A DNA stretch of 64,000 bases from contig NZ_PEBJ01000001.1 of NCBI RefSeq assembly GCF_002802915.1, positions 434,001 to 498,000 on the forward strand. Direction: 5' to 3'. Both the position numbers and the translations under genes were made by a program. The notes below the pieces were generated by a model. It had not been told where the DNA came from, did not search any database, and saw only the letters and a list, made by a program, of their open reading frames with translations. The stretch comes from Bifidobacterium felsineum. Its GTDB lineage: Bacteria > Actinomycetota > Actinomycetes > Actinomycetales > Bifidobacteriaceae. Of the stretch, positions 18,977 to 43,473 are shown in pieces; the first letter of the stretch is position 1; each line of letters begins with the position of its first letter.

Positions 18977-19010
18977 ACGTCTTTCAACTTCTTAGAAGAC
19001 GTCCTTCATC

Positions 19011-19176
19011 GTCCATAATTCGGGTAAACGACCCACGTCTCCCGATTTTTGGACACTGAGGAGTAATGGGCGTCCAAAAATCGGGTCAGTGCGGCATTGT
19101 TCCGGAATTATGGATGTTGAGTTGGTGTCAATGTCCATAATTCCGACAGTTAGGTCTATTTTTCGTAAAATTGGAC
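19011..19176. repeat. Alternating inverted-repeat array with exact 61-bp unit (convergent rsmD/trmD junction)
   Basis: One 14-nt word recurs in alternating orientation: GTCCATAATTCGGG at 19011, CCCGATTTTTGGAC at 19041, GTCCAAAAATCGGG at 19072, CCGGAATTATGGAT at 19102, GTCCATAATTCCGA at 19133 and a decayed TCGTAAAATTGGAC at 19163. Same-orientation copies are exactly 61 bp apart, and neighbours alternate at 30 and 31 bp. The words differ by substitution, not length. The array fills the gap between the stop codons of two convergent genes and could form three successive hairpins or a row of protein sites. Confidence 0.85.
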
Positions 19177-19190
19177 GCGGGAAACGGCTA

Positions 19191-20114
19191 CTAACGATCC
19201 AACTTGCGTGGATGGGCGGCTGAAACCTCCCAGCCCAATGCCATCAACGTTTTACGGTCGGCCTTATCCAAGGCCTTGCAATCCAAGGCCTCGATAAGAT
19301 CCGGTCGTATTTCGTTGGTGCGAGTCAACGCCTCATCGCGGCGGAAACGGTCAACCTTGCCGTGATCACCGGAAAGCAGCACATCGGGCACCGCAATGCC
19401 ACGCCACACTGCCGGCTTCGTGTACTGGCGATGTTCCAGCAGCGCGCCTTCGCCGGTGTAGGATTCCTCCACAATCGAATCCGGGTTGCCCATGAAACCG
19501 GGCATCAGGCGGGTGATGGCCTCAAGCATCACGGAAACCGCCACTTCGCCGCCGTTCAGTACATAATCACCGATGGAATACTCTCGTACATCAATGCCCT
19601 GCGCGCGATAGTAATCAGGAATGCGAGAGTCATAGCCCTCATATCGGCCGCAGCTGAACAACAGATGCTCAGCATGGCTCAGCTCGGTGGCATCGCGCTG
19701 CGTAAACAGAGGAGCGGACGGATTCGGAAAAATCAGTACCGGGGCGGCGGCATTGGAATCGTCATCTTCCTCAGTCTCATCATTAGGTATTCCAGAGAAG
19801 TCGAGAGCATCGTCGGCAGGAGAATCCGAAGATTCAGAGGTGGGGAAAACCAGCTCATCAGGAGAATCGTCCTCGTTCGGAGCGGGCAAATTGAGCAGCT
19901 CGTCAAGGCATTCCGCCCACACTTCTGGCTTCATCACCATGCCAGCACCGCCGCCGACCGGAGTGTCATCCACCGAATGGTGCACATCATGGGTCCAATC
20001 ACGCAGATTATGCGCGGTGATTTCCAATAGACCCTTGGACTGGGCCTTGCCCATCAGGCTCAAGTTCAGCACTTCGAAGTATTCGGGGAATACGCTCACG
20101 ATATCGATCTTCAT
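19191..20114 (-). CDS. trmD: tRNA (guanine(37)-N1)-methyltransferase TrmD
   Basis: A 307-residue SPOUT methyltransferase starting MKIDIVSVFPEYFEVLNLSL; the frame is open further upstream but the family N-terminus fixes the ATG at 20114. The trefoil-knot motifs LLFSCGRYEGYDSRI and YSIGDYVLNGGEVA are intact, with the C-terminal domain after them. It methylates G37 of tRNAs that read CNN codons and prevents +1 frameshifts. Between about residues 78 and 128 lies an acidic, low-complexity insert (EDDSPDELVFPTSESSDSPA, then NDETEEDDDSN) that lengthens the protein well beyond the usual 240-260 residues. Confidence 0.95.
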   Translation of the reverse strand: MKIDIVSVFPEYFEVLNLSLMGKAQSKGLLEITAHNLRDWTHDVHHSVDDTPVGGGAGMVMKPEVWAECLDELLNLPAPNEDDSPDELVFPTSESSDSPADDALDFSGIPNDETEEDDDSNAAAPVLIFPNPSAPLFTQRDATELSHAEHLLFSCGRYEGYDSRIPDYYRAQGIDVREYSIGDYVLNGGEVAVSVMLEAITRLMPGFMGNPDSIVEESYTGEGALLEHRQYTKPAVWRGIAVPDVLLSGDHGKVDRFRRDEALTRTNEIRPDLIEALDCKALDKADRKTLMALGWEVSAAHPRKLDR

Positions 20115-20149
20115 GCAACACAGCCTACCGATACCCGTCCATAAACAAA

Positions 20150-20248
20150 GAATCCGACCACTGACTGTAGGTTTTTGAACGAAAAACGTTAAAAATCCTA
20201 CAGTCAGTGTTAGAAATCCGACAGTCAACGTTGGAAAACCTACAGTTG
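20150..20248. repeat. 21-bp direct repeats with one inverted copy upstream of trmD / U32 gene
   Basis: AAAAATCCTACAGTCAGTG (20191), AGAAATCCGACAGTCAACG (20212) and GAAAACCTACAGTTG (20234) are direct copies with the TCC/ACC register at 20196, 20217 and 20238, exactly 21 bp apart. A partial copy (AATCCGACCACTG) has its TCC at 20153, 43 bp earlier. An inverted copy, CACTGACTGTAGGTTTTT (20159-20176), pairs with the first direct copy in a stem of about 18 bp. The array lies between the divergent trmD and U32 genes, close to both starts. Confidence 0.75.
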
Positions 20249-20338
20249 TGTGGGGTGGTGGGCCGTGCTGGGGGAGCATCATCGTTGAGATGAGGTCTGG
20301 AACGGGCATGTGCAACGTATTCATTACACTATTGCGTG

Positions 20339-21913
20339 ATGAATACGACGATGAGAATCCCCACACGCAAGAAGCCGGAGGTACTGTCTCCGGCCGGCAA
20401 CCTGCGCGGTCTGAAGGCTGCGGTCGATTATGGTGCCGATGCCGTCTACTGCGGCGGCAAGGCCTTCGGCATGCGCTCGGCACCGAAGAACCTGAGCCTT
20501 GAGGACTTCGAGGAAGGCTCGCGCTATGCGCATGAGCGTGGCGCCCGCGTGTACGTGACTTGCAACGTACTGCCGCGCAACAACGAGATCGAGGCGATGC
20601 GCGAATACGTCGGTCAGCTCAAAGACACTGGCGTGGACGCGCTGATCGTCTCCGATATCGGCGTGATGATGATGGCCCGCCAGGTGGCTCCGAACCTGGA
20701 ACTGCACGTCTCCACCCAGGCTGGTGTGACCAACTATCAGGCCGCCAACGCATTCTATGAGCTCGGTGCCCGCCGTGTGGTGCTGGCCCGCGAGATGGAC
20801 CTGCAGGCCGTGCGTGATATTCGCGCGAACATTCCGGACGATCTCGACATCGAATGTTTCGTGCATGGCGCAATGTGCATGGCCTTCTCCGGTCGTTGCC
20901 TGTTCTCCAATTACCTGACCGGTCGCGATGGCAATCATGGCGAATGTGCGCAGCCATGCCGTTGGAAGTATTCGATTGTGGAGGAGAAACGCCCCGGCCA
21001 GTACTTCCCGATTGAACAGACCAAGGATGGCGCCTACCTGTTCAACTCGCAGGACATGAACATGCTTGGTCATTTAGATGATCTGATCGACTCCGGTGCC
21101 ACGAGCCTCAAAATCGAGGGTCGTGCGAAAAGCGCGTACTACATCGCCGCCATGACCAACGCCTATAAGACCGCGGTGAATGAATACATGATTCAGCGCG
21201 GCTTCGAGTCTGCTGATGGCACGGTGTTGAAACCTTTCCATGATCAGGTGATTCGCCCGGGCGACCCGGACTTCGGCAAGATGGACGGTGAGGACGCGAT
21301 CATGCGCAATGCCGATAAGGCGTTCGCCGGCGTGGCCGATGAAGGCTACGAACGCGTTGAAGCTGTTGATGATTCCGCTTCTGCCCCGGAACCTGATGGC
21401 ATGAGCGCTCACGCTCGCTCCACCCGCCGCAAGTCCAATACCGCAGTGGAAATTATCGAAAGCGATTGGAAGCATGCGGCCGTACGCCCGGCTCTACATG
21501 TCGAATTGCCGGAATGGCTGCTCGAGGAAACCGATAAGGTGGCCCATCGCGACTACTCCACCGGTTTCTATTACCCGGAACACAAGGTGACGCAGAACAC
21601 CGACCGCTCCGCCTACTTCCGCTCGTGGCTGGTGGTTGGCGAAGTGCTGAGCTGGAGCGCCGATGAAGGCGGCCGCGTAACCCTGATGAGCCGCAACAAG
21701 ATCGAGCCCGGTCAGGAAGTTGAATTCCTGCTGCCAGGCGAGCGTCCGCTGGTGTTCACCGTGCCGGAAGACGGTCTGAAGGATGCCGAGGGATTGCCGG
21801 TGCCGGCCATCAACAATCCGGCGCATGTGTTCTCCATGCCCTGCCCACATCAGGTGCCTGTCAACGCAGCCATCCGCTCCCGCACCAAAAAGCCTATGTT
21901 GAAAGCCGAGTGA
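20339..21913 (+). CDS. U32 peptidase-family protein (TrhP/RlhA-like RNA hydroxylation factor)
   Basis: A 524-residue protein. The start is ATG 20339 or 20351; TACACT is 8 nt before 20339 and no ribosome site is seen. The barrel begins RKKPEVLSPAGNLRGLKAAV and DYGADAVYCGGKAFGMRSA. The conserved four-cysteine cluster ECFVHGAMCMAFSGRCLFSN...GECAQPCRWKY is the iron-sulfur signature of U32 proteins. Members once called collagenases are now known to act in prephenate-dependent hydroxylation of tRNA U34 (TrhP) or 23S rRNA (RlhA). The C-terminal beta-barrel domain (about 390-510) is present. The following gene starts within 2 nt of its stop. Confidence 0.85.
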   Translation: MNTTMRIPTRKKPEVLSPAGNLRGLKAAVDYGADAVYCGGKAFGMRSAPKNLSLEDFEEGSRYAHERGARVYVTCNVLPRNNEIEAMREYVGQLKDTGVDALIVSDIGVMMMARQVAPNLELHVSTQAGVTNYQAANAFYELGARRVVLAREMDLQAVRDIRANIPDDLDIECFVHGAMCMAFSGRCLFSNYLTGRDGNHGECAQPCRWKYSIVEEKRPGQYFPIEQTKDGAYLFNSQDMNMLGHLDDLIDSGATSLKIEGRAKSAYYIAAMTNAYKTAVNEYMIQRGFESADGTVLKPFHDQVIRPGDPDFGKMDGEDAIMRNADKAFAGVADEGYERVEAVDDSASAPEPDGMSAHARSTRRKSNTAVEIIESDWKHAAVRPALHVELPEWLLEETDKVAHRDYSTGFYYPEHKVTQNTDRSAYFRSWLVVGEVLSWSADEGGRVTLMSRNKIEPGQEVEFLLPGERPLVFTVPEDGLKDAEGLPVPAINNPAHVFSMPCPHQVPVNAAIRSRTKKPMLKAE

Positions 21914-21915
21914 CT

Positions 21916-22896
21916 ATGACCGAATATAGTGACGAAATCCTTGACTCCAGTGCCATGAGCTCTACCGATCGCAATGGCCGACCGATTCCGGTGACCATTC
22001 CGATTGCGCTGGCCCCCGGTATTACCGTGGTCTACACCACGCGCCTCGGCGGTCTTTCCACCGGAGACTACGGCAATCTGAACTTGGGCGGTAAGTCCGG
22101 CGATGATCCGGAAGCCGTACTCTCCAATCGCATCGCTCTGTCCGAAGCGATCGGAGCACCGTTGTCCCTGGTCAGTCAAGTGCATTCCGGCATTGCCATC
22201 GATATCGATGAGCCGGGCCACGAATCCAATACTGACTTCGGTTTTGACGCTTCCGGCACCCACGGCGAGGAACCGGTCGCAGCCATTGAAGCTGATGGGC
22301 AGGTGACTTCTCGCCGAGACGTTGCACTTGGCATGTTCGCCGCCGACTGTCTGCCGGTGCTGATGGCCGACCCGGAAACCGGCATTATCGGTGCCGTGCA
22401 TTGCGGCCGCCGTGGACTGGAACGTGGTGTTATCGGTGCCACCGTGGAACTGATGCAGCGAAAGGGCGCTGATCCCAGCCGCATCATCGCCACGCTCGGC
22501 CCGCGTATCTGCGGCGACTGCTATGAGGTAGGCGACGAAATCGCCGACACTTTCATCAAACGTTTCCCGCTGACCAAGACCCAGACGCGCTTCGGCGGTG
22601 CCGGCATCGACATCGCCGAAGCCGCGATGATCGATCTGGCATTTGCCGGTGTGCATCAGGTGGTCGATTCGATGCCTCGCGTGCACGCCGCCACCGAATA
22701 TCTGGAAGAGGACGCCGAACTCGCCGAACTGTGCCGCACCGATGGCGAAGGCCCGGCCGAACTTGCCGAGCGTATCGGCTCCATCAGTCACAGCATGTGC
22801 ACGTTGGAGAATCCGCTCTGGTATTCGCATCGCCGCGCCGCGCTCGCCGGCAAGGCCTACGAAGGTCGTCTGCTCGCCCTTATCGTGCGCCACTAG
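21916..22896 (+). CDS. pgeF: Peptidoglycan editing factor PgeF / polyphenol oxidase-family (YfiH) protein
   Basis: A 326-residue CNF1/YfiH-fold protein. It has TRLGGLSTGDYGNLNLGGKS near the N-terminus, SLVSQVHSG, ADCLPVLMADP, GAVHCGRRGLERGVIGATVE, and GPRICGDCYEVGDEI. The conserved His and Cys residues in SQVHSG, AVHCG and CGDCYEV would form the metal/nucleoside site. Relatives are reported as laccase-like, as purine nucleoside phosphorylases, or as editors that remove L-Ser-containing muropeptides. An acidic stretch about residues 80-115 is longer than usual. Its start lies 3 nt after the U32 stop (a GTG at 21910 overlaps it). Confidence 0.85.
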   Translation: MTEYSDEILDSSAMSSTDRNGRPIPVTIPIALAPGITVVYTTRLGGLSTGDYGNLNLGGKSGDDPEAVLSNRIALSEAIGAPLSLVSQVHSGIAIDIDEPGHESNTDFGFDASGTHGEEPVAAIEADGQVTSRRDVALGMFAADCLPVLMADPETGIIGAVHCGRRGLERGVIGATVELMQRKGADPSRIIATLGPRICGDCYEVGDEIADTFIKRFPLTKTQTRFGGAGIDIAEAAMIDLAFAGVHQVVDSMPRVHAATEYLEEDAELAELCRTDGEGPAELAERIGSISHSMCTLENPLWYSHRRAALAGKAYEGRLLALIVRH

Positions 22897-22965
22897 CGCG
22901 CACATTCCGTGGAGAAGGTGTGAGGCAGGTCACGAACGGGCATGCCTCACCCTACGGTGGAGCCT

Positions 22966-23823
22966 ATGACTGAGAATGAGAGAGCAAACGAGACTGCAAT
23001 GAATACGATGGCTGACGATCCCAAGCCTCAGACCGTGCCTGTCGTGGCCGTGGTATTGGCGGCCGGATTCGGCACACGATTCGACCCGGACAATCCCAAG
23101 CAACTGGTGTCTGTGGGCGGCAAGCCCATTGTGTGTTGGAGCATCGAGGCGTTCGAACGCTGCGCGCGCGTAAGCGATATCGTCGTAGTGGTCAACAGCA
23201 AGGTTCGTGAGGAAGTCGAATCGCTGATCGATCAGCAGGGCTATGGCAAAGTTCGCGTGGTCATCGATGGCGGCGCCGAACGTGTGGACAGCACAGCGGC
23301 GGCTTTGGATACGTTAGCTCAGGCCGGTATTCCCGGCGATGCCAAGATTCTCATCCACGATGCCGTCCGTCCGTTCGTCGCCCAGTCCGCCATCGATGGT
23401 TCCATCGATGCCCTTGATCAGTTCAAAGCGGCCACGGTTGCCTATGCGTCCACCGATACCGTGTTGCTAACCCAGGATTTGGGTGATTTGAAGGTCGTCA
23501 AATCGGTTCCTGACCGTCCGAACACATTCCGTGCGCAGACGCCGCAGTCCTTCCGCTTCGCAACAATTCGCAAGGCCTACGAACTGGCTGCACAGGACCC
23601 GGATTTCCATCCCACGGACGATACGCGCGTGGTGGTCGATTACCTGCCGGGCGAGCCGGTGGCCATTGTCTCCGGCGCTGAGACCAACCTGAAGATCACC
23701 ACATTGGAAGACATTCCCACCGCTGAGCGCATCGCCGAACAGTTGGAGGGATTCGACCCCAAGGAGGCGGCTCGTGCCCGCATGCATGCGCTGCTCGCCC
23801 AGGCCGCCGGACAGATGCGCTAG
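22966..23823 (+). CDS. ispD: 2-C-methyl-D-erythritol 4-phosphate cytidylyltransferase
   Basis: Codes for 285 residues if started at ATG 22966 (GGTGGAG 5 nt upstream); ATGs at 22942 and 22999 are alternatives. The nucleotide-binding VVLAAGFGTRFDPDNPKQLV, the ILIHDAVRPFV metal site and RAQTPQSFRF are diagnostic of IspD, the third enzyme of the MEP route to isoprenoids. The N-terminal 30 residues are an extension without known function. The C-terminus is followed by a tail of about 20 residues. The related CDP-ribitol synthases share the fold, but nothing nearby suggests teichoic acid synthesis. Confidence 0.9.
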   Translation: MTENERANETAMNTMADDPKPQTVPVVAVVLAAGFGTRFDPDNPKQLVSVGGKPIVCWSIEAFERCARVSDIVVVVNSKVREEVESLIDQQGYGKVRVVIDGGAERVDSTAAALDTLAQAGIPGDAKILIHDAVRPFVAQSAIDGSIDALDQFKAATVAYASTDTVLLTQDLGDLKVVKSVPDRPNTFRAQTPQSFRFATIRKAYELAAQDPDFHPTDDTRVVVDYLPGEPVAIVSGAETNLKITTLEDIPTAERIAEQLEGFDPKEAARARMHALLAQAAGQMR

Positions 23824-23859
23824 TGCTCGGTTTGCGGCTATGACGCTACACTAGGCAGT

Positions 23860-24537
23860 ATGCGTGAACTCAATGTGGTGATTTCCGGATTCGACCATTA
23901 TGAAGGCGTGGACGTCAACCCAGCGTACGAAGTGCCCAAAGCCATTGCCGAGCAGGGGTTGGGTGCGCCGTTGGGAACCGATGACCCGCTGAACGATGTT
24001 CATGTGACCATCCATGCCGTGCAGCTTCCGGTCAGCTTCACCAAAGCATGGCCGCAGCTGAAGGAAACCATCGAGGCCACGAATCCGGATATCGTTATCG
24101 CCACCGGGCTCAAGCATTCGGCCCGAAGCGTCATGCTCGAGCGTTGCGCCACGAATCTGATGGATGCCGAACGCCCGGATGCCGATAACGTGATTCAACG
24201 CCGCAAGCCAATTGATCCCAACGGCCCGGCTGCGTATTGGACCCGGTTGCCATTGCGTTCGATTCTGCAGGACTTCACCGATGATTCCATTGCGGCTTCC
24301 CTGAGTTCCGATGCCGGCACGTTCGTATGCAACTCGTTGTTCTACAATCTGCTGAACTGGACCGCCACCCAGGAGCGCGTCCTGGGTGGTTTTGTGAGCT
24401 TCCCGCCGGTGCGCCCCGCTGGTTCGGCGCAGCACGGACTGCCGCTTGAACAGCAGATCGCAGCCGGACGCGATGTGGTTCGCGAGGCGATTCGCTACTA
24501 CTTGAAGCCATCCAGCTCCGACATTCTCATCGCGTAA
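23860..24537 (+). CDS. pcp: Pyroglutamyl-peptidase I (C15) homolog lacking the catalytic His
   Basis: A 225-residue C15-fold protein. VVISGFDHYEGVDVNPAYEV is the N-terminal signature (VTGFxPFxG...NPS) with changes. The catalytic Glu is present (E94 in MLERCATN), as is the catalytic Cys (C157 in GTFVCNSLFYNLLNW). The third residue, His in the family motif GFIHVP, is replaced by Ser180 in GGFVSFPPV, and no other His stands close by. The protein may be inactive on L-pyroglutamyl peptides or use another base. TACACT lies 7 nt before the ATG, suggesting a leaderless mRNA. Confidence 0.8.
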   Translation: MRELNVVISGFDHYEGVDVNPAYEVPKAIAEQGLGAPLGTDDPLNDVHVTIHAVQLPVSFTKAWPQLKETIEATNPDIVIATGLKHSARSVMLERCATNLMDAERPDADNVIQRRKPIDPNGPAAYWTRLPLRSILQDFTDDSIAASLSSDAGTFVCNSLFYNLLNWTATQERVLGGFVSFPPVRPAGSAQHGLPLEQQIAAGRDVVREAIRYYLKPSSSDILIA

Positions 24538-24739
24538 TACGAGGTTCTGTACCCGGGCGCTTTTCTATAGAAGAAACTGTCCGTATCGCGGACTGAAGAG
24601 AGTACGTATCGGCAACAAACTAGAACATCATTCGCACGCATTGTAACGATTGCATATCAATGTGTGTCTCCAGTGCCCCTATGCGCTACAGTGCATGAGG
24701 ACATGCCAAAGGCTTATGGATGTGAAAGGATATTCAGCC

Positions 24740-27967: not shown

Positions 27968-29098
27968 ATGGCAGCACTTCGTGGTCCGGATAGTTCCGAG
28001 GACGAACGTCGTTTGGGGGAGCAGGCCGTCTTTCCTGAGACGGTCGATGTCAATATCCGTCAGCTCGATCCGATCCCAGCGCCTCGAGCGTTCCTCAAAG
28101 AGCAGCCTCTTACTGACGAGATGAGTAATCTCGTGCTGCATTCGCGCCAGGAGATTCGTGACGTGCTCAATGGTCGCGACGATCGTCTGCTTGTCATCGT
28201 GGGTCCATGTTCCATCCACGATCCCAAGGCCGCGCATGAGTATGCCGAGAAACTGGCTGCCGTCAAGCGTGAGCTGGAAGATCGTCTCGTCATCGTGATG
28301 CGCGTCTACTTCGAAAAGCCTCGTACCACCATTGGCTGGAAGGGCCTGATTAACGATCCTGATCTGGATGGCCGTTTCAATATTCGCAAGGGTATGTGGC
28401 TGGCCCGCAAGGTGCTGACCGACGTGCTGAGCCTTGGTCTTCCCGCCGCCACCGAATGGCTCGACCCCATCACCCCGCAGTACATTTGCGATGCGATCAG
28501 CTGGGGTGCCATCGGTGCACGTAATACGGAAAGCCAGGTCCACCGCGAACTGGCCAGCGGCTTGTCCATGCCGGTCGGCTTCAAGAACTCCACCGACGGT
28601 TCCATCAAGGCCGCCGCCGACTCCTGCTACACCGCAGGCTTCGAACATCATTTCCTGTCCATCAACCTGGATGGCCGCGTCATCTCCGCCGAAACCAAGG
28701 GCAATCCGGATTGTCATCTGGTGCTTCGCGGTTCGAGCTCTGGTCCGAACTACGATGCTGAATCGGTGCGTAAGGCTTTGGAAGCGCTGAAGGCGTCCAA
28801 GGCTTCCGGCCCGAGTCAGTACGGTCTGGTCATCGACGCCGCTCACGGCAACTGCGGCAAAAACGAGGTCCGTGAGGCTGAAGTCGTCGAGGAAATCGCA
28901 GCCCGCCTTGCCAAGGGTGAGCCAGGCATCACCGGCGTGATGATGGAAAGCTTCCTTGTGGGTGGCCATCAGAAGCCGGCACCGCTTGACCAGCTGGTCT
29001 ACGGTCAATCCGTCACCGATGCCTGCGTGCCATGGAATCGCACCAACGAGCTGCTGCACACGCTGGCCGACGCCGTCACCGCCCGTCGCGCACTATAA
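27968..29098 (+). CDS. aroG: 3-deoxy-7-phosphoheptulonate (DAHP) synthase, class I
   Basis: A 376-residue enzyme that condenses phosphoenolpyruvate with erythrose 4-phosphate, the entry to the shikimate pathway. Motifs are VIVGPCSIHDPKAAHEYA, VMRVYFEKPRTTIGWKGLIN, AISWGAIGARNTESQVHREL, the metal-binding Cys in GPCSIHD, the ligand His in IDAAHGNCGKN and MMESFLVGGHQ. It matches the short class I (AroF/G/H) type, in which an N-terminal extension carries amino acid feedback control. A second, 410-residue paralog lies 1.7 kb downstream, so the two isozymes probably answer to different aromatic amino acids; which is which cannot be read. Confidence 0.93.
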   Translation: MAALRGPDSSEDERRLGEQAVFPETVDVNIRQLDPIPAPRAFLKEQPLTDEMSNLVLHSRQEIRDVLNGRDDRLLVIVGPCSIHDPKAAHEYAEKLAAVKRELEDRLVIVMRVYFEKPRTTIGWKGLINDPDLDGRFNIRKGMWLARKVLTDVLSLGLPAATEWLDPITPQYICDAISWGAIGARNTESQVHRELASGLSMPVGFKNSTDGSIKAAADSCYTAGFEHHFLSINLDGRVISAETKGNPDCHLVLRGSSSGPNYDAESVRKALEALKASKASGPSQYGLVIDAAHGNCGKNEVREAEVVEEIAARLAKGEPGITGVMMESFLVGGHQKPAPLDQLVYGQSVTDACVPWNRTNELLHTLADAVTARRAL

Positions 29099-29138
29099 CA
29101 ATAGATTTCTGCGGTAACCTCGAACTTTGATTCGATAG

Positions 29139-29197
29139 TTATCCACCATGCCGCCTTTGTGCTTTGTGGATATTGAAAAGTTATCCACAAAGCACAA
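29139..29197. promoter_or_regulatory. Palindrome carrying DnaA-box-like TTATCCACA words
   Basis: TTGTGCTTTGTGGATA (29157-29172) and TTATCCACAAAGCACAA (29181-29197) form a 16-bp inverted repeat. Each arm ends in the DnaA-box core TTATCCACA or its complement. A third copy, TTATCCACC, is at 29139-29147. It lies between aroG and the AbiEi/nuclease-like gene, 70-130 nt before that gene's ATG. It may be an operator, a terminator of aroG, or a DnaA target. Confidence 0.55.
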
Positions 29198-29268
29198 TAC
29201 TGCGTCACAGTATGCACATTTTCTTGTGCGGCTTGTTCTCGATGCTGAGATAACCATATTGTCGGTAC

Positions 29269-30222
29269 ATGAAAGAGCACAAAGAAGTCGCCGCTGCGTT
29301 AAGGTCCGCACAATCGGATTATCGTTGTGCTTCAGGTACCAATGATGCATTGCGAAAAGCCATGCGCCGTCGTGCCGCTGCAGGAGATTTGGTTTCACCT
29401 TATCGGAATATGTATGCCGCACGCGATTATTGGAATGCGTTGAATAATGAGCAACAATCATTGCATGTGATTCGAGGATTAGCGTATCGGCATCCATCGT
29501 GGGTCTTTACGGGGCTAAGCGCAGCGTGCTTGTATGGGGTGCAGCATTCGCGTTCTTTGCATGATGGGAAAGTATATGTGGCATCCACGGGCGGGATCGG
29601 TGGTGCTGATGAATCACATCTTGTGCGCGTCTATATGAATCAAATTCCTCAGCGCATGGTGCAGGGCATTCGTCTTGTTTCGCCAGCCCGAATGATACTC
29701 GACTGTGCAGGGTATCCGTTTGTTCATGCGTTGGCCATTATTGATTCGACGTTACGGATGGGATTGACTTCGTGTGAAGAAATTGAAGCATTGTCGCTGC
29801 AAAGCGTTTGTGATGAGCGATCAGTGAAGCGGTTAGTGCGCTATGCGGATGCGGGAAGCGAGAATGGGGGAGAATCGTTGTTCCGCGGCATGCTGATAGA
29901 GCGGAATTATGCCGAGCCGTTGTTACAGGTGGAATTTGGGAACCCGGATAATCCAGCGATGCCTTATCGGGTTGATTTTTGTTGGAAACTTGCGGATGGT
30001 CGCATTATTGTAGCCGAATACGATGGTATGGCGAAGTATGCAGATGCGACTAATAAAAATCGAGCCAGTCTTCAAGCTAAGTTGGATTACGAACGTCGGA
30101 GAGAGCAACATCTCAAAGCGCAAAAGGTAACGGCAATCATCCACGTCTTCTTTGAGGATTTGATGTCTCCGCGGCGCTTTGAGGAAAAGATGAATGAGGC
30201 CGGAGTTCCTAAAATCGTGTGA
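29269..30222 (+). CDS. AbiEi-like antitoxin / DUF559 nuclease-fold hypothetical protein
   Basis: A 317-residue protein. Residues about 20-150 resemble the AbiEi-type winged-helix region: RRAAAGDLVSPYRNMYAARD, SWVFTGLSAACLYG, then SPARMILDCAG. Residues about 225-310 look like a Vsr/DUF559 PD-(D/E)xK fold: YRVDFCWKLADGRIIVAEYD with D, ExD and downstream K/R residues. It has no adjacent toxin (AbiEii) gene. Its DNA is visibly richer in A and T than both neighbours, pointing to transfer. No ribosome site is seen; CATATT is 8 nt before the ATG. Such stand-alone proteins are common in bifidobacterial genomes and their role is unknown. Confidence 0.6.
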   Translation: MKEHKEVAAALRSAQSDYRCASGTNDALRKAMRRRAAAGDLVSPYRNMYAARDYWNALNNEQQSLHVIRGLAYRHPSWVFTGLSAACLYGVQHSRSLHDGKVYVASTGGIGGADESHLVRVYMNQIPQRMVQGIRLVSPARMILDCAGYPFVHALAIIDSTLRMGLTSCEEIEALSLQSVCDERSVKRLVRYADAGSENGGESLFRGMLIERNYAEPLLQVEFGNPDNPAMPYRVDFCWKLADGRIIVAEYDGMAKYADATNKNRASLQAKLDYERRREQHLKAQKVTAIIHVFFEDLMSPRRFEEKMNEAGVPKIV

Positions 30223-30310
30223 ATCGAGGTGTTTCCTCGGTGAAATGGTTCTAGTCAGAGTCATAGCGGTGAATAGAGCTTTTGCCGGTGTATTAAGCGG
30301 TTCAAAATTT

Positions 30311-30644
30311 CGTTCTGAACCCATATTTCGTGAAAAGGAGCCACTGAGCGGCCGTCAGTGGCTCCTTTTTTCGAGATAATTCCTAAGTTCGTGAAAAGAG
30401 GCCACTGACTATTCCTCAGTGGCGTATATTCACGAGCTGTACCTTTTCCTCGAAATAATACGCCACTGAGTCATCGTCAGTGGCTTCTTTTTACGAGGTC
30501 AACGAATATCTCGAAATAATAAGCCGATCGAACGCACTCAGCGGCGTTATTTTTCGGAGAGACTCCATATTTCGTGAAAATACGCCATTGATCAATTGTC
30601 AGCAGCTTCTTTTTTCGGGATAATCCCATATCTCGTGAAAAAGC
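30311..30644. repeat. Tandem palindromic array, exact 61-bp unit, more than five units
   Basis: The unit has the form ATTTCGTGAAAA-nGCCACTGA-loop-TCAGTGGC-TTTTTTCGAGATAA. The TCG of the left arm is at 30328, 30389, 30450, 30511, 30572 and 30633. The CG of the right arm is at 30311, 30372, 30433, 30494, 30555 and 30616. Every step is exactly 61 bp, although units differ by many substitutions. Unit 1 is a near-perfect 25-bp-plus stem ending in a T-run (AAAAGGAGCCACTGA / TCAGTGGCTCCTTTTTT). Units 4 and 5 are the most decayed. The array fills most of the 608-nt space between the AbiEi-like gene and the second DAHP synthase. There is no ORF; 30645-30830 holds the aro promoter region. Confidence 0.92.
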
Positions 30645-30830
30645 ACCGCGAGGGAACTGAAGCGGTCGTTATTGGTTTGGCGCCGATCGTCGGCATCGGT
30701 ATCAGTGTCGGTATTGGTGGCGCTGATGCGTGTAATGCTGTCGATAATAATGTTGCCGAGTCTACGGCTGACACTGTTGCCGCTATGGTTAGGTATCCTT
30801 GGGGTGGATGAATCACAAGGAGTACGAGAC

Positions 30831-32063
30831 ATGCAGCAGCAGCAAGGCGCAGTGCCAGCCGAAAATCCATTGCAGGTTGGCCCGCAGCCGTTGAACACGC
30901 CTGAAGAGCTTCGCGCCATTCGCCAAGCCATGGGCGAAGGCAAGAATCCGTTGATTGCCACGGATGTGCCACGCTGGGAGGATCAGGTTGGTGTCAGCCG
31001 CATCATCAATCGTCGTGTATTGGAACTTGAGCCGCTGCCCACGCCGGCCCAGGTGCTTGCGGAACTGCCGCTGACTCCTCAGGCCCAGGGAATCGTCGCC
31101 TATTCGCGCGATGAGATTCGCGCATGCCTCTACGGGCAGGATGATCGTCTGTTGGTGATTGTGGGCCCCTGCTCGGTTCATGATCCCGCAGCTGCGCTCG
31201 ATTATGCGCACCGCTTGGCCAAGGTGATGAAGGAAACCGAGCGTGAGCTGCTCATTGTGATGCGTGTGTACTTTGAGAAGCCGCGCACCACTGTGGGTTG
31301 GAAGGGCCTGATTAACGACCCGGACATCGACGGCAGCCACCATATCAAGAAAGGCCTGCTGCTTGCCCGAAAGACGTTGCTCGGTGTGCTTGGCGAAGGA
31401 TTGGCTGCCGCCACGGAATTCCTCGAGCCCACGAGCCCACAGTTCATCGCCGATGCAGTGAGCTGGGGTGCCATCGGCGCCCGCAATACGGAGAGCCAGG
31501 TACATCGTCAGCTGGCCAGCGGCTTATCCATGCCGGTGGGATTCAAGAATGCCACTGACGGCTCGGTGAAAGCAGCAGTCAACGGCTGCTTTGCCGCAGC
31601 CCAACAGCACACGTTCTTTGGCATCGACCATTTGGGCCGTGCATGCGCAGTGGAAACGCTCGGCAATCCTGATTGCCATGTGGTGCTGCGCGGCTCGATT
31701 CATGGGCCGAACTATGACGCTCAATCCGTAGCCAAGGCGATGGATACCATTCGCGATGAGATGCCGGCTGATTCCGCGGCCTGCCATGGCCTGATTGTGG
31801 ATTGCTCGCACGGCAACTCCGGCAAGGATGAGCATCGTCAGGCCGAAGTAGTGCGCGATATCGCACGTCGCATCGCGGCGGGGGAGCGTGGAATCACCGG
31901 CATCATGATGGAAAGCTTCATCGAGGGCGGCAATCAGAAGGCCGCGCCGCTCGATCAGTTGGTGTACGGCAAATCCATCACCGATAAGTGCATCAGTTGG
32001 CCGGATACCGAAGCGCTGCTGCATGAGCTCGCCGAAGCCGTGGCCGCACGCCGTTGGAAGTGA
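30831..32063 (+). CDS. aroF: DAHP synthase paralog, class I, with N-terminal extension
   Basis: A 410-residue enzyme from ATG 30831 (AAGGAG 8 nt upstream); the frame is open to 30672 without a ribosome site. Its catalytic body repeats the motifs of the first copy (VIVGPCSVHDPAAALDYA, VSWGAIGARNTESQVHRQL, SHGNSGKDE, MMESFIEGGNQ). It has about 30 additional N-terminal residues (MQQQQGAVPAENPLQVGPQP) and a different regulatory region. The two proteins are recognisable paralogs, probably an old tandem duplication later separated by the insert between them. The symbol marks only the isozyme; its feedback inhibitor is unknown. Confidence 0.9.
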   Translation: MQQQQGAVPAENPLQVGPQPLNTPEELRAIRQAMGEGKNPLIATDVPRWEDQVGVSRIINRRVLELEPLPTPAQVLAELPLTPQAQGIVAYSRDEIRACLYGQDDRLLVIVGPCSVHDPAAALDYAHRLAKVMKETERELLIVMRVYFEKPRTTVGWKGLINDPDIDGSHHIKKGLLLARKTLLGVLGEGLAAATEFLEPTSPQFIADAVSWGAIGARNTESQVHRQLASGLSMPVGFKNATDGSVKAAVNGCFAAAQQHTFFGIDHLGRACAVETLGNPDCHVVLRGSIHGPNYDAQSVAKAMDTIRDEMPADSAACHGLIVDCSHGNSGKDEHRQAEVVRDIARRIAAGERGITGIMMESFIEGGNQKAAPLDQLVYGKSITDKCISWPDTEALLHELAEAVAARRWK

Positions 32064-36833: not shown

Positions 36834-36870
36834 GGGCATATCTCAGGGGGGTATTCTTCCTTAAATGCGA

Positions 36871-36906: not shown

Positions 36907-36970
36907 GCATGTGAGCCAGCGCCTGTCTTGGGCGTGCACTGTGTTTCGGCTGTCTCGCGCGTTCATAAAC

Positions 36971-37028: not shown

Positions 37029-37143
37029 TCGGTATAGCGCTCCCTCCAACGCAAATAGGCTTGTAGTTGTCACGAAATGACCGGGCCTTGTGCACGTCGT
37101 GAACATAGCCCGAGATTTATTGATAGAGGGAATAAGAAACATT

Positions 37144-38274: not shown

Positions 38275-38354
38275 GCAGACGGTTTCAAGAAAACCGCATG
38301 AATCACTGGTTGGTTCCGATAACTAAATAACTAAAGAAGACCATTTCGGTCTGA

Positions 38355-38397
38355 ACTTTGAGCCGCAGTCGTAAGCAATACGGCTGCGGCTCAAAGT
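38355..38397 (+). terminator. Intercistronic stem-loop between pstS and pstC
   Basis: ACTTTGAGCCGCAG (38355-38368) pairs perfectly with CTGCGGCTCAAAGT (38384-38397). A 14-bp stem without a clean T-run suits a partial terminator or 3' stabiliser that lets binding protein outnumber the membrane subunits. Confidence 0.75.
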
Positions 38398-38478
38398 GGG
38401 TCAAGGGGCATACGGTTTTGCAAGCTTTTTGACCACCAATCCTTACATCCTTACCAATATCTTCGTTAAGGAGAACCC

Positions 38479-39435
38479 GTGAGTTCGCAAGACAAAACGG
38501 CTCTCGCACCATCGGGCGGCAAAACCGCCGACAAGGTGTTCCGTGGTGTGGCATACGCCTGCGGCATTCTGATCCTTGTAGTGCTTGCTGCCGTGTTCCT
38601 CTTCCTCTTCTTCCGCGCCTGGCCGCTTATCGGCGGTGATCAGAAGGCCAACAGCGACGTTATCTCCAGCTTCACTGGTGGCAAGGTCTCCAACTTCTGG
38701 GGCTATGTGCTGCCGTTGCTGTTCGGCACTGTGCTTATCTCCATCTTGGCCCTGATCATTGCATTCTTCGTGTCCATCGGCATCGCATTGTTCATCTCCC
38801 ATTACGCACCGAAGAAGGTCGCCACCGGTCTGAGCTATGTCATCGATTTGCTCGCCGCAATTCCTTCCGTTATCTACGGTCTGTGGGGCGGCTTGATTCT
38901 GGTGCCCGCCATCTACCCGTTCTGGAACTGGGTGGCCAACCACCTCGGTTGGTTCCCTCTGTTCGCAGGCCCAGCCGCCAACCCGCAGCGTACTGTCGCC
39001 ACCGTGGCTGTGGTGCTCGCCGTCATGGTGCTGCCGATTATCACCTCTATGTCGCGTGATATCTTCCTGCAGACCCCGACCCTTCAGCAGGAGGCCGCCT
39101 ACGGCTTGGGTGCCACCAAGTGGGAAATGATCAAGCTTGCCGTTATTCCGTTCGGCCGCTCCGGCATCGTGTCCGCCTCCATGCTGGCTCTTGGCCGTGC
39201 ACTCGGTGAGACGATGGCTGTGTTGATGATTCTTTCCCCGAGCGTTACCGGCTACTCCATCAAGATTCTGCAGGCTTCTCAGAGCAACGCAATCGCATCC
39301 AACATTGCCGCCCAGTACCCTGAAGCCAACGATCTTGGTGTGTCCGTGCTGATTGGAACTGGTTTGATCCTGTTCCTCATCACCTTCATCGTGAACTTCG
39401 TGGCTCGTAAGATCACTGAGAAAGCGGGTGTCTGA
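38479..39435 (+). CDS. pstC: Phosphate ABC transporter permease PstC
   Basis: A 318-residue membrane protein from a GTG preceded by AAGGAGAACCC. It has six main hydrophobic segments. The coupling loop EAAYGLGATKWEMIKLAVIP and YVIDLLAAIPSVIYGLWGGL are characteristic of PstC. It pairs with PstA to form the phosphate channel. The last base of its stop overlaps the pstA start (TGATGG), so translation is coupled. Confidence 0.96.
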   Translation: MSSQDKTALAPSGGKTADKVFRGVAYACGILILVVLAAVFLFLFFRAWPLIGGDQKANSDVISSFTGGKVSNFWGYVLPLLFGTVLISILALIIAFFVSIGIALFISHYAPKKVATGLSYVIDLLAAIPSVIYGLWGGLILVPAIYPFWNWVANHLGWFPLFAGPAANPQRTVATVAVVLAVMVLPIITSMSRDIFLQTPTLQQEAAYGLGATKWEMIKLAVIPFGRSGIVSASMLALGRALGETMAVLMILSPSVTGYSIKILQASQSNAIASNIAAQYPEANDLGVSVLIGTGLILFLITFIVNFVARKITEKAGV

Positions 39436-40427
39436 TGGCTGAAGAAACCAAGAAGAAGAACTTGGACGGCGCACCCGTCATCGACTTCGACAAGTTCCGC
39501 CCTACGCGCTCCTCCGAGCAGTACCGTAAGGGCAAGGACTACTTCATGTCCGGTCTTATCGCACTGGCCTTCGTGATTGCCTGTATCCCGCTGGTTTCCG
39601 TGCTGTGGACCACCATTGTCAATGGCTTTAAGCGTCTGAACCTGAACTTCCTGACCTACAACATGACTGGTGTGGTCGGCGGCAACCCGACTCCGTCCGG
39701 TGGCTACGGCGGTGTGCTGCACGCCATCATCGGTACGCTGGAGATTACCGGTGGCGCAATGCTCATCTCCATCCCGATCGGCATCATGTGCGCTGTGTAC
39801 CTTGTCGAGTACGCTCACGGTGGCAAGCTCGCCATGACTGTTTCTCTGCTGGTCGATGTGATGAGTGGTATTCCTTCCATCGTCGCTGGTTTGTTCGCAT
39901 TCTCAATGTTCACCATCGTGTTCGGACCGGGTACCATCAACGGTTTCGAAGGTTCCGTGGCATTGTCCCTGCTGATGCTGCCGACCGTGGTGAAGTCCTG
40001 CGAAGAGATGCTTAAGATCGTGCCAAACGATCTTCGTGAAGCCTCTCTGGCGCTGGGTGTCACCAAGCAGCGCACCATCACCAAGATTGTGCTGCGTACC
40101 GCATTGCCGGGCATCGTCTCCGGCTGCATCCTCGCCATCGCTCGTGTGATTGGTGAGACCGCACCATTGCTGATGACCGCAGGCTACATCGCCAGCACCA
40201 ACGTCAACCTGTTCGCAGGCCAGATGACCACGCTGCCGGTGTACGTCTACCAGGAGTACTCCAAGCTCTCCGCCAACTGCCCGGCCAACGCCACTGCAGC
40301 TTGCGTGCCTACCATTCCGATGGAACGTGCGTGGGCCGCAGCTCTCGTGCTGATCGTCGTAGTGCTGGTGCTCAACCTCATCGGTCGTCTGGTGGCTAAG
40401 ATCTTCGCCGTCAAGACCGAGCGCTAA
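39435..40427 (+). CDS. pstA: Phosphate ABC transporter permease PstA
   Basis: A 330-residue permease with a longer cytoplasmic N-terminus than PstC (about 40 residues), then six hydrophobic segments. [20 protein letters not shown], the coupling loop [20 protein letters not shown] and [13 protein letters not shown] are family signatures. A periplasmic loop with two cysteines ([14 protein letters not shown]) lies before the last TM helix and could form a disulfide. It overlaps pstC by one base. Confidence 0.96.
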
Positions 40428-40462
40428 GCCGTACTGGAAAGTCAAGAAATAAAGGAAACATC

Positions 40463-41242
40463 ATGGGACAACGTATTGACGTCAACCACGAGAACATCTA
40501 CTACGGCGACTTCCTTGCTGTGGAAGATGTGAACATCAACATCGAGGCCAACAAGGTCACCGCCTTCATCGGCCCCTCTGGCTGTGGCAAGTCCACCGTG
40601 CTGCGCACGCTTGACCGCATGCATGAGCTCATCCCCGGCGCTCACGTCGAGGGTGAGGTGCTGCTCGAGGGCAAGAACCTGTATGACAAGGACGTGGATC
40701 CTGTGTCCGTCCGTCGTGACGTCGGCATGGTCTTCCAGCGCCCGAACCCGTTCCCGACCATGTCCATCCGCGAGAACGTGCTCGCCGGTGTGCGTCTGAA
40801 CAACAAGCACATCAGCAAGTCCGACGCCGACGATCTGGTTGAGTGGGCTCTTCGCGGTGCTAACCTCTGGAACGAGGTTAAGGATCGTCTGGATAACCCG
40901 GGTATCGGTCTTTCCGGTGGTCAGCAGCAGCGTCTGTGCATCGCCCGCGCTGTGGCCGTGCACCCGCAGGTCGTGCTGATGGACGAGCCTTGCTCCGCAC
41001 TCGACCCGATTTCCACCCTGGCCGTTGAGGATCTGATCAACGAGCTCAAGGACGATTACACCATCGTGATTGTGACCCATAACATGCAGCAGGCAGCCCG
41101 TATCGCCGACTACACCGCCTTCTTCAACCTGAAGGCCGTTGGCCAGCCTGGCCACCTCGAGTACTTCGCGGACACCACCACGATGTTCAACAACCCGCAG
41201 AACGAAGAAGCCGAGCGTTACATCTCCGGCCGCTTCGGCTGA
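40463..41242 (+). CDS. pstB: Phosphate ABC transporter ATPase PstB
   Basis: A 259-residue ATPase. Walker A is [14 protein letters not shown], the Q-loop [13 protein letters not shown] is specific to PstB, the signature is [14 protein letters not shown], Walker B is [16 protein letters not shown] and the switch His is in [15 protein letters not shown]. All are intact. It drives phosphate import and in PhoR systems helps transmit the phosphate signal. The operon has no phoU after pstB, so the kinase-transporter link must use a PhoU encoded elsewhere or none. Confidence 0.97.
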
Positions 41243-41291
41243 TCGTTTCTTCGTGCGGCAGTAATTATGCCGTACGAAGATTTGAATATGA

Positions 41292-41326
41292 GAAGGTCCC
41301 GTATGGTTATTCCATGCGGGACCTTC
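41292..41326 (+). terminator. Terminator-like hairpin after pstB
   Basis: GAAGGTCCCG (41292-41301) pairs with CGGGACCTTC (41317-41326), extended inside by TATGG/CCATG. The tail CCCGTATTTG is only weakly T-rich. Confidence 0.7.
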
Positions 41327-41387
41327 CCGTATTTGTGAGCAGGCGCTCTTCGAGGGCTTGCTAGGACTTGTGCGGTTTCAACGGTTT

Positions 41388-41618
41388 GGCACAATCTTTA
41401 TAACTAATCGTCCGACGCTGCTGTTGTGACAATATACAGCGGTACAACTTACTGATTCTTTGGTTTCATGACAGTCGTGACAATTATTCTTGTCACAATC
41501 ATTGAAATCCTGCCAATTCGAACCTGTTGTGGCAAGGAGAATGGCGGAACATAGTTCCTTGTGCATTGAGGGCCGTGGCACAATCCATTGAAATCGTTCC
41601 ATGCCCAATGTTGTGGCA
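41388..41618. repeat. Degenerate inverted repeats (GGCACAATC / GTTGTGGCA) between pstB and the purine permease
   Basis: The 507-nt gap (41243-41749) holds three copies of a forward word at 41388 (GGCACAATC), 41492 (GTCACAATC) and 41577 (GGCACAATC). A reverse word follows each 31-33 nt later at 41423 (GTTGTGACA), 41526 (GTTGTGGCA) and 41610 (GTTGTGGCA). Copies 2 and 3 continue as CATTGAAATCC / CCATTGAAATCG. GTGACAATTATTCTTGTCAC at 41477-41496 is a local palindrome. Unit spacings are about 104 and 84 bp. No gene is present. Confidence 0.6.
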
Positions 41619-41666
41619 CGATTTTTGTCCCGCTTCCAGAATCAATCGTTTGCTGTTACTGCCGAG

Positions 41667-41701
41667 ATAAAAAGAGGCTGGACTCGATGAGGAGTCCAGC
41701 C
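41667..41701 (-). terminator. Rho-independent terminator of the purine permease gene
   Basis: Read on the reverse strand, GGCTGGACTC-ctcatc-GAGTCCAGCC is followed by TCTTTTTAT. A perfect 10-bp stem with a T-run ends the leftward transcript. Confidence 0.88.
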
Positions 41702-41749
41702 TTGTAATGCTGCTACAGCGCGATTGCTAGCGATTCACAATCGTGCACA

Positions 41750-43144
41750 TTACAGAATCGCCATGCACACGAAGTCCAGGATGAACAGTGCGGAGACGAT
41801 CCACAGAATCGGGTGCACTTCCTTGGCCTTGCCCTTGCAGGTCTTCACGATGCAGTACATGATGAAGCCGCCAGCGATGCCGTAGGAGATGGAGTAGGAG
41901 AAGGCCATGAACACGGCGGCGAAGAACGCCGGAATAGCGTCATCGATGTTGGCCCAATCGACTTCCTTCAGGGAAGCAGCCATCATGCAGCCAACAATCA
42001 CCAGCACACCTGCAGTGGCGGCGGATGGCACGGCGGAGATAACCGGAGCCAGGAAGGCGGACAGGGCGAAGCAGATGGCCACAACCACGGAGGTCAGACC
42101 AGTGCGACCGCCGGCGGCGATACCGGCAGAGGATTCCACGTAGGTGGTGGTGTTAGAGGTACCGCAGATAGCGCCGATGGAGGTGGCGATGGAATCGGCG
42201 AACAGGGCCTTATCCATCTTGGAGGAGAATCCGTGGCCGTTCTCCAGGGCCTCTTCGTCGGCTGCGGAGAAGATGCCGGTGCGACGGCCGGTGCCGATGA
42301 AGGTGCCGAGGGTGTCGAATGTATCGGACATCGAGAAGGCGAAAATGGTCACGATAACCAGCGGCAGCTTGGCCGGGTCAGAGAACAATGCCGGGAAGCC
42401 GTCGGCGGTGAAGATTGCGCCAAAGGTCTGCGGCAGCTGGGAGAAGGTCTCGGAAATGGAAACGGAGGAACCGAAGTTGGTCACGCCGAACGGAATGCCG
42501 ATCACGGTGGTGATGGCGATGGCCAGCAGCAAGCCGCCCTTGATCTTCATTACGGTGAACACGATGGCCAGCACGAGGCCGATGAGGAAGACCCACAGCA
42601 CCTTGTCGTTAAAGGTGGCGAGACCTGGGGTGGCGGCCACGGCGCCACCCTTGGCGGCGGCCTTCGGGTCGCCCGGAGTGAACTTGATAAGGCCAACGTT
42701 CAGCATGCCCACATATGCTACGAACAGACCGATGCCGCCGCCGATGGCCTGCTGCAGCACCTCGGGGATGGCCATGATGATCATCTTGCGGATCTTGGTG
42801 ACGGTGATGAGGATGTTGATCAAACCGCACAGGAACACCATGCACATGGTCTGCTGCCAGGTGAAGCCCAGGCCGAAGCACACCGTGTAGGTGAAGAATG
42901 CGTTGAGGCCCATGCCGGCTGCCTGTGCGTAAGGCACGTTGGCGAACAGACCCATAACCAAGGTGCCGATGATGGCTGCGATGATGGTGGCGAGGAATAC
43001 GCCGCCCCAGGGCATACCCGTCTGAGACAGAATCTGCGGGTTGACGACGATGATGTACGCCATTGCGAAGAACGTAGTCAGGCCGGCCAGAATTTCGGTC
43101 GAAACCGTCGTGTTGTTCTCCTTCAAATGGAAGAACTTCTCCAT
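41750..43144 (-). CDS. NCS2-family purine (guanine/hypoxanthine/adenine) permease, AzgA/PbuG-like
   Basis: A 464-residue protein with about 12-14 hydrophobic segments. MEKFFHLKENNTTVSTEILA, GLTTFFAMAYIIVVNPQILS, and PYAQAAGMGLNAFFTYTVCF with the conserved MGLNAFF motif are signatures of the AzgA/PbuG branch. TSNTTTYVESSAGIAAGGRT is the substrate-site segment. It imports purine bases with protons. AAGGAAGTAGAGAG precedes the ATG. The leader upstream is about 130 nt long and GC-rich. Confidence 0.92.
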   Translation of the reverse strand: MEKFFHLKENNTTVSTEILAGLTTFFAMAYIIVVNPQILSQTGMPWGGVFLATIIAAIIGTLVMGLFANVPYAQAAGMGLNAFFTYTVCFGLGFTWQQTMCMVFLCGLINILITVTKIRKMIIMAIPEVLQQAIGGGIGLFVAYVGMLNVGLIKFTPGDPKAAAKGGAVAATPGLATFNDKVLWVFLIGLVLAIVFTVMKIKGGLLLAIAITTVIGIPFGVTNFGSSVSISETFSQLPQTFGAIFTADGFPALFSDPAKLPLVIVTIFAFSMSDTFDTLGTFIGTGRRTGIFSAADEEALENGHGFSSKMDKALFADSIATSIGAICGTSNTTTYVESSAGIAAGGRTGLTSVVVAICFALSAFLAPVISAVPSAATAGVLVIVGCMMAASLKEVDWANIDDAIPAFFAAVFMAFSYSISYGIAGGFIMYCIVKTCKGKAKEVHPILWIVSALFILDFVCMAIL

Positions 43145-43288
43145 TACTCTCTACTTCCTTGGGTTGTGCGGGGCTTGGCGCGTGAGCTGATGCGCTCCGG
43201 TTGCCCCGGCGAGAATTGCGACTCGCCCTGATCGGCCTGGCCGCGCGCGTTCGGCGCATCCACCCGATCAGAACCATCGTTGATTATA
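43145..43288 (-). promoter_or_regulatory. Promoter and structured leader of the purine permease gene
   Basis: A reverse-strand TATAAT (43283-43288) gives a leader of about 130 nt. It can fold into GGCGAG/CTCGCC and GCGC-rich hairpins. I do not recognise the purine (guanine) riboswitch core in it, so the control mode is open. Confidence 0.45.
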
Positions 43289-43356
43289 ACCGGTGCATAT
43301 ATCGTGAAACCGCGGTGTGAAAGCCGAGTTACACTGAAGTCATCTATTGCGTTTTC

Positions 43357-43473
43357 GCGTGAAAAGTACGGAAAGCAGGAGTATTCGTACGTTTTTGCGC
43401 ACTTTCCGCGCGAAACGTGCGCGGAATGGGTGGATTGAGACCGTTTTGCGCGCATATCGCGCGAAAAGTACGG
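43357..43473. repeat. Alternating inverted-repeat array with 51-bp unit upstream of the hydrolase
   Basis: Forward words GCGTGAAAAGTACGG (43357), GCGCGAAACGTGCGC (43408) and GCGCGAAAAGTACGG (43459) are each 51 bp apart. Reverse words CGTACGTTTTTGCGC (43386) and GAGACCGTTTTGCGC (43437) are also 51 bp apart and alternate with them. The layout is that of the arrays at 19.0 and 30.3 kb, but with a different word and a unit 10 bp shorter. It lies between the divergent purine permease and alpha/beta hydrolase genes. The last copy ends 27 nt before the hydrolase ATG. Confidence 0.82.

Follow-up and report, generated by a model that had tools for sequence, protein, structure and literature searches.

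Intergenic repeat arrays in a 64,000-nucleotide stretch of Bifidobacterium felsineum (contig C11, positions 434001-498000; hereafter the window), together with a gene family that combines an AbiEi-like DNA-binding region with a predicted C-terminal Vsr/homing-endonuclease-like domain, probably constitute a two-part system like that of repetitive extragenic palindromic (REP) sequences and REP-associated tyrosine transposases (RAYT), with the arrays as predicted binding-site arrays. This reading draws on the arrays, their phased geometry, the flanking of genes by arrays, the co-variation of word and protein and the conserved active-site-like residues, and further on word constraint in one orthologous array pair, the presence or absence of gene and array as a block at one site, and a DnaA-box-like sequence upstream of the genes. 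The finding that several array families each lie around a gene copy of their own, predicted to bind and cut DNA, points to a new self-spreading REP-like system.

Using the protein encoded directly before array A of the window as a query, we found matches in 15/15 array-rich genomes, chosen for richness in R1 hairpins. From 70 homologue loci taken, the 67 whose reading frame stays open for 280 aa or more made up the set counted, and 450 bp on each side of every gene was examined, a gene being scored as both-sided when direct and inverted words were common to its two sides. Both-sided word arrays were carried by 33/67 homologues versus 2/672 control genes (0/281 among the control genes of four array-rich genomes alone), and an array on at least one side by 46/67 homologues versus 90/672 controls. 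When homologues were clustered at 70% identity, a both-sided member was present in 25/45 clusters, and at 50% identity in 12/16; pitch phasing in the gene flanks gave an R of 0.60. The words co-varied with the protein: downstream arrays of the 33 both-sided genes shared words in 7/7 pairs at 75% protein identity or more, in 3/16 pairs at 60 to 75%, and in 1/505 pairs below 60%. Similarly, a CACTGA-N7-TCAGTG hairpin lay within 1.5 kb of 16/17 genes at least 50% identical to the window protein and of 8/53 other genes, one of the latter being a stretched match on a D array.

Five of the array families (A, B, D, E, and J) had an adjoining gene of this kind in some genome. Two B arrays enclose a paralogue at C11:796141-797091, and family E (CGCGCAGTTACTGCC, pitch 63) flanks the gene at C14:126701-127744 together with the orthologous genes of B. 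saguini and B. cebidarum; J words were seen next to four genes, all in other genomes. In the three relatives compared (B. cebidarum, B. saguini, and B. colobi), it is a 333-aa gene that has D arrays at its sides; no such gene was among the five homologue loci of B. felsineum, so that the D arrays there look orphaned. The gene at 29269-30222, whose homologues have such arrays on their flanks, probably encodes the agent behind them, which would then lie within the interval. A protein from the window has its closest named relatives in the same three species, at 96% identity. Separately, the word flanking the gene at C16:14447-15382 (L463) recurs in another stretch, L220, near position 5600.

Members of this gene family are ~317 to 370 aa in size. 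PADLOC AbiEi models matched 19/19 family members at an E value of 0.1 or lower (best, 1.2e-10), the window member weakly (E 0.0075), and Pfam AbiEi_1 matched 3/19 members, with 26.1 bits for the window protein. The last 128 residues at the C terminus were modeled (mean predicted local distance difference test score [pLDDT], 81), and the model was aligned with the catalytic domain of I-Bth0305I at Z 10.5 (94 aligned residues, 3.1 A) and with NGO0050 and Vsr at Z 9.4 and 9.1, respectively, many other nucleases and TnsA ranking lower; the domain as modeled resembles Vsr and homing endonucleases and may have a Vsr-like PD-(D/E)XK fold. The C-terminal residues D236, E250, D252, G253, K256, Y257, and R278 were present in 67/67 homologues and E202 in 66/67. 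In addition, the sequence TTATCCACA, named here after what we take to be the DnaA box consensus, occurred exactly within 300 bp upstream of 50/67 homologues and downstream of 0/67, the corresponding values for control genes being 7/672 and 4/672.

The arrays and single hairpins of the window are summarized in Table 1. A first-pass annotation of the window had described a fixed pitch in its arrays, and the pitch was indeed near exact, at 61 bp in A and B, ~51 bp in C, and 21 bp in D. The same annotation had placed the arrays at 19.0, 30.3, and 43.4 kb under one rule of alternating words at fixed pitch, which held in both parts for A and B. The tandem words of D converge on a centre and do not alternate. 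Steps from word to word alternated between 28 and 33 bp in array A and between 35 and 26 bp in array B (both pairs summing to 61), and in array D they were 26, then 21 and 21 bp, D words being 21 bp. Over all copies in the B. felsineum genome, 54/54 adjacent A steps were 28 or 33 bp (one further double step was 60 instead of 61), 38/38 B steps were 35 or 26 bp, and 59/60 D steps were 21 or 26 bp, the remaining one being a double step of 42; regular steps were also found in 37/38 A and 121/124 D intervals of the relatives. The A, B, and D words are 19 to 21 nt long, with linker lengths of 7, 12, or 16 bp in A and B. Word identity was 0.72 in A and 0.71 in B, compared with 0.36 for the longer spacers of both and a near-random 0.29 (A) and 0.27 (B) for the N7 linkers. 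A CRISPR array was ruled out on this geometry, with words that alternate or converge and linkers of the above lengths; cas genes were not searched for.

When each array was compared with its own genome by BLAST, the words proved not to be locus-specific, contrary to what had first been thought: every array is one copy of a dispersed family, with 8 loci for A, 8 for B, 14 for D, and ~10 of varying strength for C, the window copy being included in each count. Of the copies placed against called open reading frames (ORFs), 5/49 lay inside one, and mechanical ORF calling may err there. Nor are A and B unrelated, since both carry CACTGA-N7-TCAGTG and share the unit layout of 54 bp plus 7 bp. Besides A and B, the superfamily defined by CACTGA-N7-TCAGTG includes the hairpin at 44.2 kb, the one at 55.7 kb, whose core has two mismatches, and a family K of two relatives. 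In the 464-kb sample described below, exact CACTGA..TCAGTG pairs occurred 5 times at spacing 7 and 0 times at the other 20 spacings tested, and loci of other species gave 5 at spacing 7, 1 at spacing 4, and none otherwise. Genome-wide, 40 sites matched CACTGA-N7-TCAGTG with at most one mismatch versus 4 for a reversed control pattern. A hairpin covariance model gave at least 102 matches in the B. felsineum genome (both strands counted; 150 of 527 candidates scored) and a match in at least 59/112 genomes of the genus (up to 54 candidates scored per genome). Bifidobacterium genomes hold many families of helically phased short intergenic repeat arrays.

The suggestion that a rule fixing unit length recurs across different words was borne out, and the distribution of pitches was not flat. 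A sample of 464 kb of the B. felsineum genome (the window plus 20 sampled stretches) contains 53.7 kb of intergenic DNA, in which direct-repeat lags peaked at 21 bp (20 versus 1.5 in dinucleotide shuffles), 61 bp (16 versus 1.5), and 51 bp (16 versus 1.0), followed by 42 and 63 bp, and arrays exceeded shuffles in the sets from across the genus as well. Later scans also required an inverted copy, since a coding periodicity of 3 contaminated the direct-only scan in other species; these gave 47 region-lags versus 0 in shuffles for the B. felsineum sample and 172 versus 18 for 73 other loci. The pitches showed a period of ~10.35 bp with a phase near 0 (R 0.53 and 0.345, respectively). When the scan was repeated on 40 new stretches, taken from 20 single-contig genomes, 21/366 regions had arrays, with 30 region-lags versus 2 in shuffles, and a V-test preset at 10.35 bp gave u values of 2.62 (all lags) and 2.70 (minimum lag), where lags within one family are not independent; the best fit was at 10.0 to 10.2 bp. 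Across the genus, then, pitches favour multiples of ~10.2 to 10.4 bp, one helical turn. The idea of a repeating protein scaffold, raised in the first-pass annotation, fits the arrays because the pitches favour whole helical turns, and the helical pitch yields a physical prediction, namely, co-operative binding on one face of the DNA.

Comparison between species revealed turnover of the arrays. The block of gene and array A (~29099-30727) was missing at the syntenic site in B. cebidarum (~214 bp instead) and in B. saguini (~45 bp instead), and B. colobi had the gene at that site with a shorter array. At window 28140-32060, the module sits between a 3-deoxy-D-arabino-heptulosonate 7-phosphate (DAHP) synthase gene and a gene ~68 to 70% DNA-identical to the DAHP synthase genes of relatives. 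A K array was present in two species, and the site was empty in the other five examined (the window, L124, L174, L126, and L172). Within the orthologous K array pair, differences numbered 12/114 in words versus 20/62 in linkers (Fisher p 0.0008), with no indel over 176 bp. Orthologous D arrays lay in the same places by flank BLAST, and their unit number was equal in 0/14 pairs by word-matrix count. For J, sites were picked by one inner arm only; the partner arm stood at N7 in 14/17 of them, and true outer-arm partners were complementary at 8.57/10 positions versus 6.19/10 when swapped, 0/20000 permutations being as good. Therefore, it is the pairing that is kept or copied in J, not the outer sequence. 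The N7 partners of family A were only modestly more alike mid-word (0.73 versus 0.62, p ~0.02), a difference confounded by unpaired edge words, and the covariation in alignment A1 is inflated, its rows having been chosen partly for arm complementarity. The templated amplification at hairpins that had been proposed at first stays hypothetical, although templated copying would fit both the arm covariation of J and the unit numbers that change from one species to another.

From these data we put forward the following scheme. Its first part would be the gene family with its AbiEi-like region and nuclease-like C terminus, and its second part the arrays of the protein's own 19- to 21-nt word, alternating or converging at a pitch of whole helical turns, which lie to either side of the gene and also, without the gene, as copies dispersed in intergenic DNA. 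Each paralogue would recognize its own word, which would account for the presence of more than one family (A, B, D, E, and J) in a single genome. By analogy with AbiEi and its 23-bp inverted repeats, the protein may bind the words; it may also cut DNA, copies then spreading and being homogenized when a break is repaired with another array as the template (homing or gene conversion), and its expression may be tied to DnaA. With slightly less than even confidence, we extend this to a wider proposal, in which AbiEi-Vsr nucleases home their own phased non-coding arrays into intergenic sites, as selfish or domesticated elements found genus-wide, with a private word per paralogue and under DnaA (replication-linked) control, and in which the REP/RAYT strategy would have been invented a second time, independently, an enzyme of the homing-endonuclease type taking the place of the transposase.

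Several observations weigh against the two-part system. By the flank test, 34/67 homologues were without both-sided arrays, among them the window gene, with an array on one side only; a group of 326 to 339 aa (e.g., L450 and L452-L457, from several genomes) showed no flanking arrays and is possibly a domesticated branch. Many of the 67 homologues are orthologues of each other, and the 15 genomes had been chosen beforehand as rich in R1 hairpins. For family C, no C words lay beside any of the 67 homologues, and no partner gene was found. At the K array site, no target-site duplication was seen for the insertion. As for the protein, profile searches of the gene family gave no match to a nuclease family, Foldseek with the C-terminal model gave no match at an E value below 0.001 (best, 0.011), a mitoribosomal protein appeared at Z 8.0 beside the nucleases in the fold comparison, the nuclease-fold models are shallow, being built from 3 to 4 sequences, and the N-terminal region was modeled poorly (pLDDT below 50). 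Regarding the pitch, period 3 in the same scan gave an R of 0.49 in the B. felsineum genome, about as strong as that of 10.35 bp because 3 divides each of the lags 21, 42, 51, and 63, and 0.23 in the other loci; it gave only 0.14 in the fresh set, where omitting multiples of 3 lowered u to 1.23 (all lags) and 1.98 (minimum lags). The evidence as a whole is one of association, and binding, cutting, and mobility are all inferred from it and none was observed.

The alternative that survives best is that the arrays are operators of a host AbiEi-like regulator that polymerizes along phased sites and silences or organizes the chromosome, in which case the arrays would not be mobile and the nuclease domain would be secondary. 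Helical phasing and regular spacing would suit such a regulator, and AbiEi is described as an autorepressor that binds inverted repeats (PMC3985639). Moreover, exact DnaA boxes are clustered next to one A array (5 in ~400 bp; L203:2540-3150, C11 at ~122.5 kb), A arrays are close to such clusters in three relatives (L254, L256, and L259), and 7/8 A loci of the B. felsineum genome are on contig C11, with an apparent clustering of the family near the boxes. The cluster itself is possibly oriC. Against a resident regulator stand the turnover of arrays between close species, seen in the gene-array module and in the K array with its five empty sites, the invariance of the active-site-like residues, and the persistence of D and J arrays in B. 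felsineum with no cognate gene among the five homologue loci. We regard this explanation as unlikely, though as clearly better placed than the two that follow.

Neutral amplification of palindromes by slippage or template switching, devoid of function, would agree with the unit numbers that differ in 14/14 orthologous D pairs (word-matrix count), and hairpin-templated correction could produce the arm-to-arm covariation of J; it is very improbable given words that evolve more slowly than linkers with no indels (one pair measured), spacings that are kept despite near-random N7 linker sequence (identity 0.29 in A), and the specific flanking of one gene family. Equally improbable is that the elements are hairpins of mRNA 3' ends or bidirectional intrinsic terminators: 7/9 window hairpins fold strongly, several hairpins come just after stop codons, and some A hairpins pass a terminator-like scan, but 0/12 single hairpins, read by eye, had five or more T in the 8 bases past the stem on either strand, arrays D and C of the window lie between divergent genes, and RNA hairpins would leave the whole-turn DNA pitch and the flanking of one gene family unexplained. 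Single hairpins as intrinsic terminators were ruled out by this absence of a T-run after the stem (12/12, by eye).

Table 1. Positions of arrays, single hairpins, and the candidate gene in the window
Feature	Position	Strand	Description
Candidate cognate gene, 317 aa	29269..30222	+	AbiEi-like region plus predicted C-terminal Vsr/homing-endonuclease-like domain; directly before array A
Exact DnaA-box-like sequence TTATCCACA	29181..29189	+	Upstream of the 29269-30222 gene
Array A	30294..30652	no strand	Six 54-bp units with 7-bp gaps, pitch 61; word TTCGTGAAAATAAGCCACTGA, strands alternate, first word degenerate
Array B	19006..19181	no strand	Three 54-bp units with 7-bp gaps, 176 bp, pitch 61; word ~TCAGTGTCCATAATTCGGG
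Array D	20161..20249	no strand	A single word on the plus strand, then an AT-rich centre and three words on the minus strand; register of 21 bp, with 26 bp from word to word over the centre
Array C	43346..43472	no strand	Three copies of a palindrome near CGTACTTTTCGCGCGAAAAGTACG, ~51-bp pitch
J-type single hairpin	44229..44277	no strand	ACGTACACTGA-N7-TCAGCGTACGT, outer arms covary; fold z -9.5
J-type single hairpin, more degenerate	55683..55731	no strand	

The strongly folding hairpins of the window had z values of -4.4 to -9.5, and the two tested that did not fold strongly were the one at 30571-30619 and that of array C. The palindrome core of the C family, TTTTCGC-GCGAAAA (window 43346-43472 and the C-family copies), for which no cognate gene was found, resembles parS and Noc sites. 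Further repeats were noticed in intergenic DNA. The word TTGTGGCACAAT / TTGTGACAATA recurs in long intergenic regions at 41243-41812 of the window and in L204, long hairpins with GCGGGATGGAACTGCA-type arms recur between genes (L204:18741-20000 and L207:1458-2015), and L220:17963-18205 holds an array of a TGGTACGTCATC/GTTGTCG word, with no gene assigned. Rfam at curated thresholds returned 3 matches in the window, all tRNAs, and a subthreshold search of six loci returned 9 matches, all to microRNA models under their cut-offs. Literature searches by word and by sequence word yielded no description of such arrays or of the gene-array pairing, the sequence-word matches being single words in unrelated work.

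Bifidobacteria are widely used, and their intergenic DNA is poorly explained. If the two-part system is real, a different enzyme family has the same repeat-gene logic, and multi-copy intergenic repeat systems would arise by convergence; in the literature found, REP and bacterial interspersed mosaic elements (BIME) go with a single class of enzyme, that of the Y1 transposases. Such a system would also offer a natural code linking protein sequences to DNA words, for which the 33 both-sided genes from 15 genomes, with mostly distinct words, provide material.

Among known systems, a spaced motif of Bifidobacterium animalis, GGGACAG(N)15TGTCCC, is likewise an intergenic spaced inverted word, with 21 copies and an unexplained function (PMC5217627); unlike the arrays here, it is given as a pair, with no array pitch or gene in the section that describes it (PMC5217627). 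Compared with the type IV antitoxin AbiEi, the gene family shares AbiEi-related sequence, and the 23-bp boxes that published AbiEi binds in inverted orientation (PMC3985639) are close in length to the 19- to 21-nt words. It differs from AbiEi by the extra C-terminal nuclease-like domain, and no AbiEii toxin gene was found beside the window gene, whose neighbours at this locus are the DAHP synthase gene and the gene related to it. The predicted C-terminal fold is like those of Vsr and the EDxHD-type homing endonucleases such as I-Bth0305I (Z 9.1 and 10.5, respectively); the residue pattern here reads E..D..ExDG..KY. Unlike these nucleases, the present gene family goes with multi-copy non-coding arrays.

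The closest parallel is with REP/BIME and RAYT, in which the gene lies between inverted copies of its own repeat, other copies occur without a gene, and repeat and protein co-evolve (PMC2817692). The families here similarly consist of dispersed intergenic palindromic words, alternating arrays, and gene-free copies; the gene is flanked by two copies of its own repeat in 33/67 homologues (on one side only for the window gene), and the repeat co-varies with the protein (7/7, 3/16, and 1/505 by falling identity). Regarding the GTAG/GTGG-type head that marks one end of the repeat in REP, inspection by eye showed GTGG within A words (TCAGTGGC) and GTAG within most D words, in both cases away from the ends, and neither in B, C, or J words. 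The Y1 transposase family PF01797 had 0 matches in the B. felsineum genome, compared with matches in 5/14 control genomes. We ruled out membership in REP/RAYT because the genome has no Y1 transposase and the enzyme is of a different kind. Thus, the system differs from REP/RAYT in a cognate gene that is AbiEi-like and Vsr-like instead of a Y1 transposase, and from REP sequences in A, B, and D words that are 19 to 21 nt long and helically phased, with linkers of fixed length and near-random sequence.

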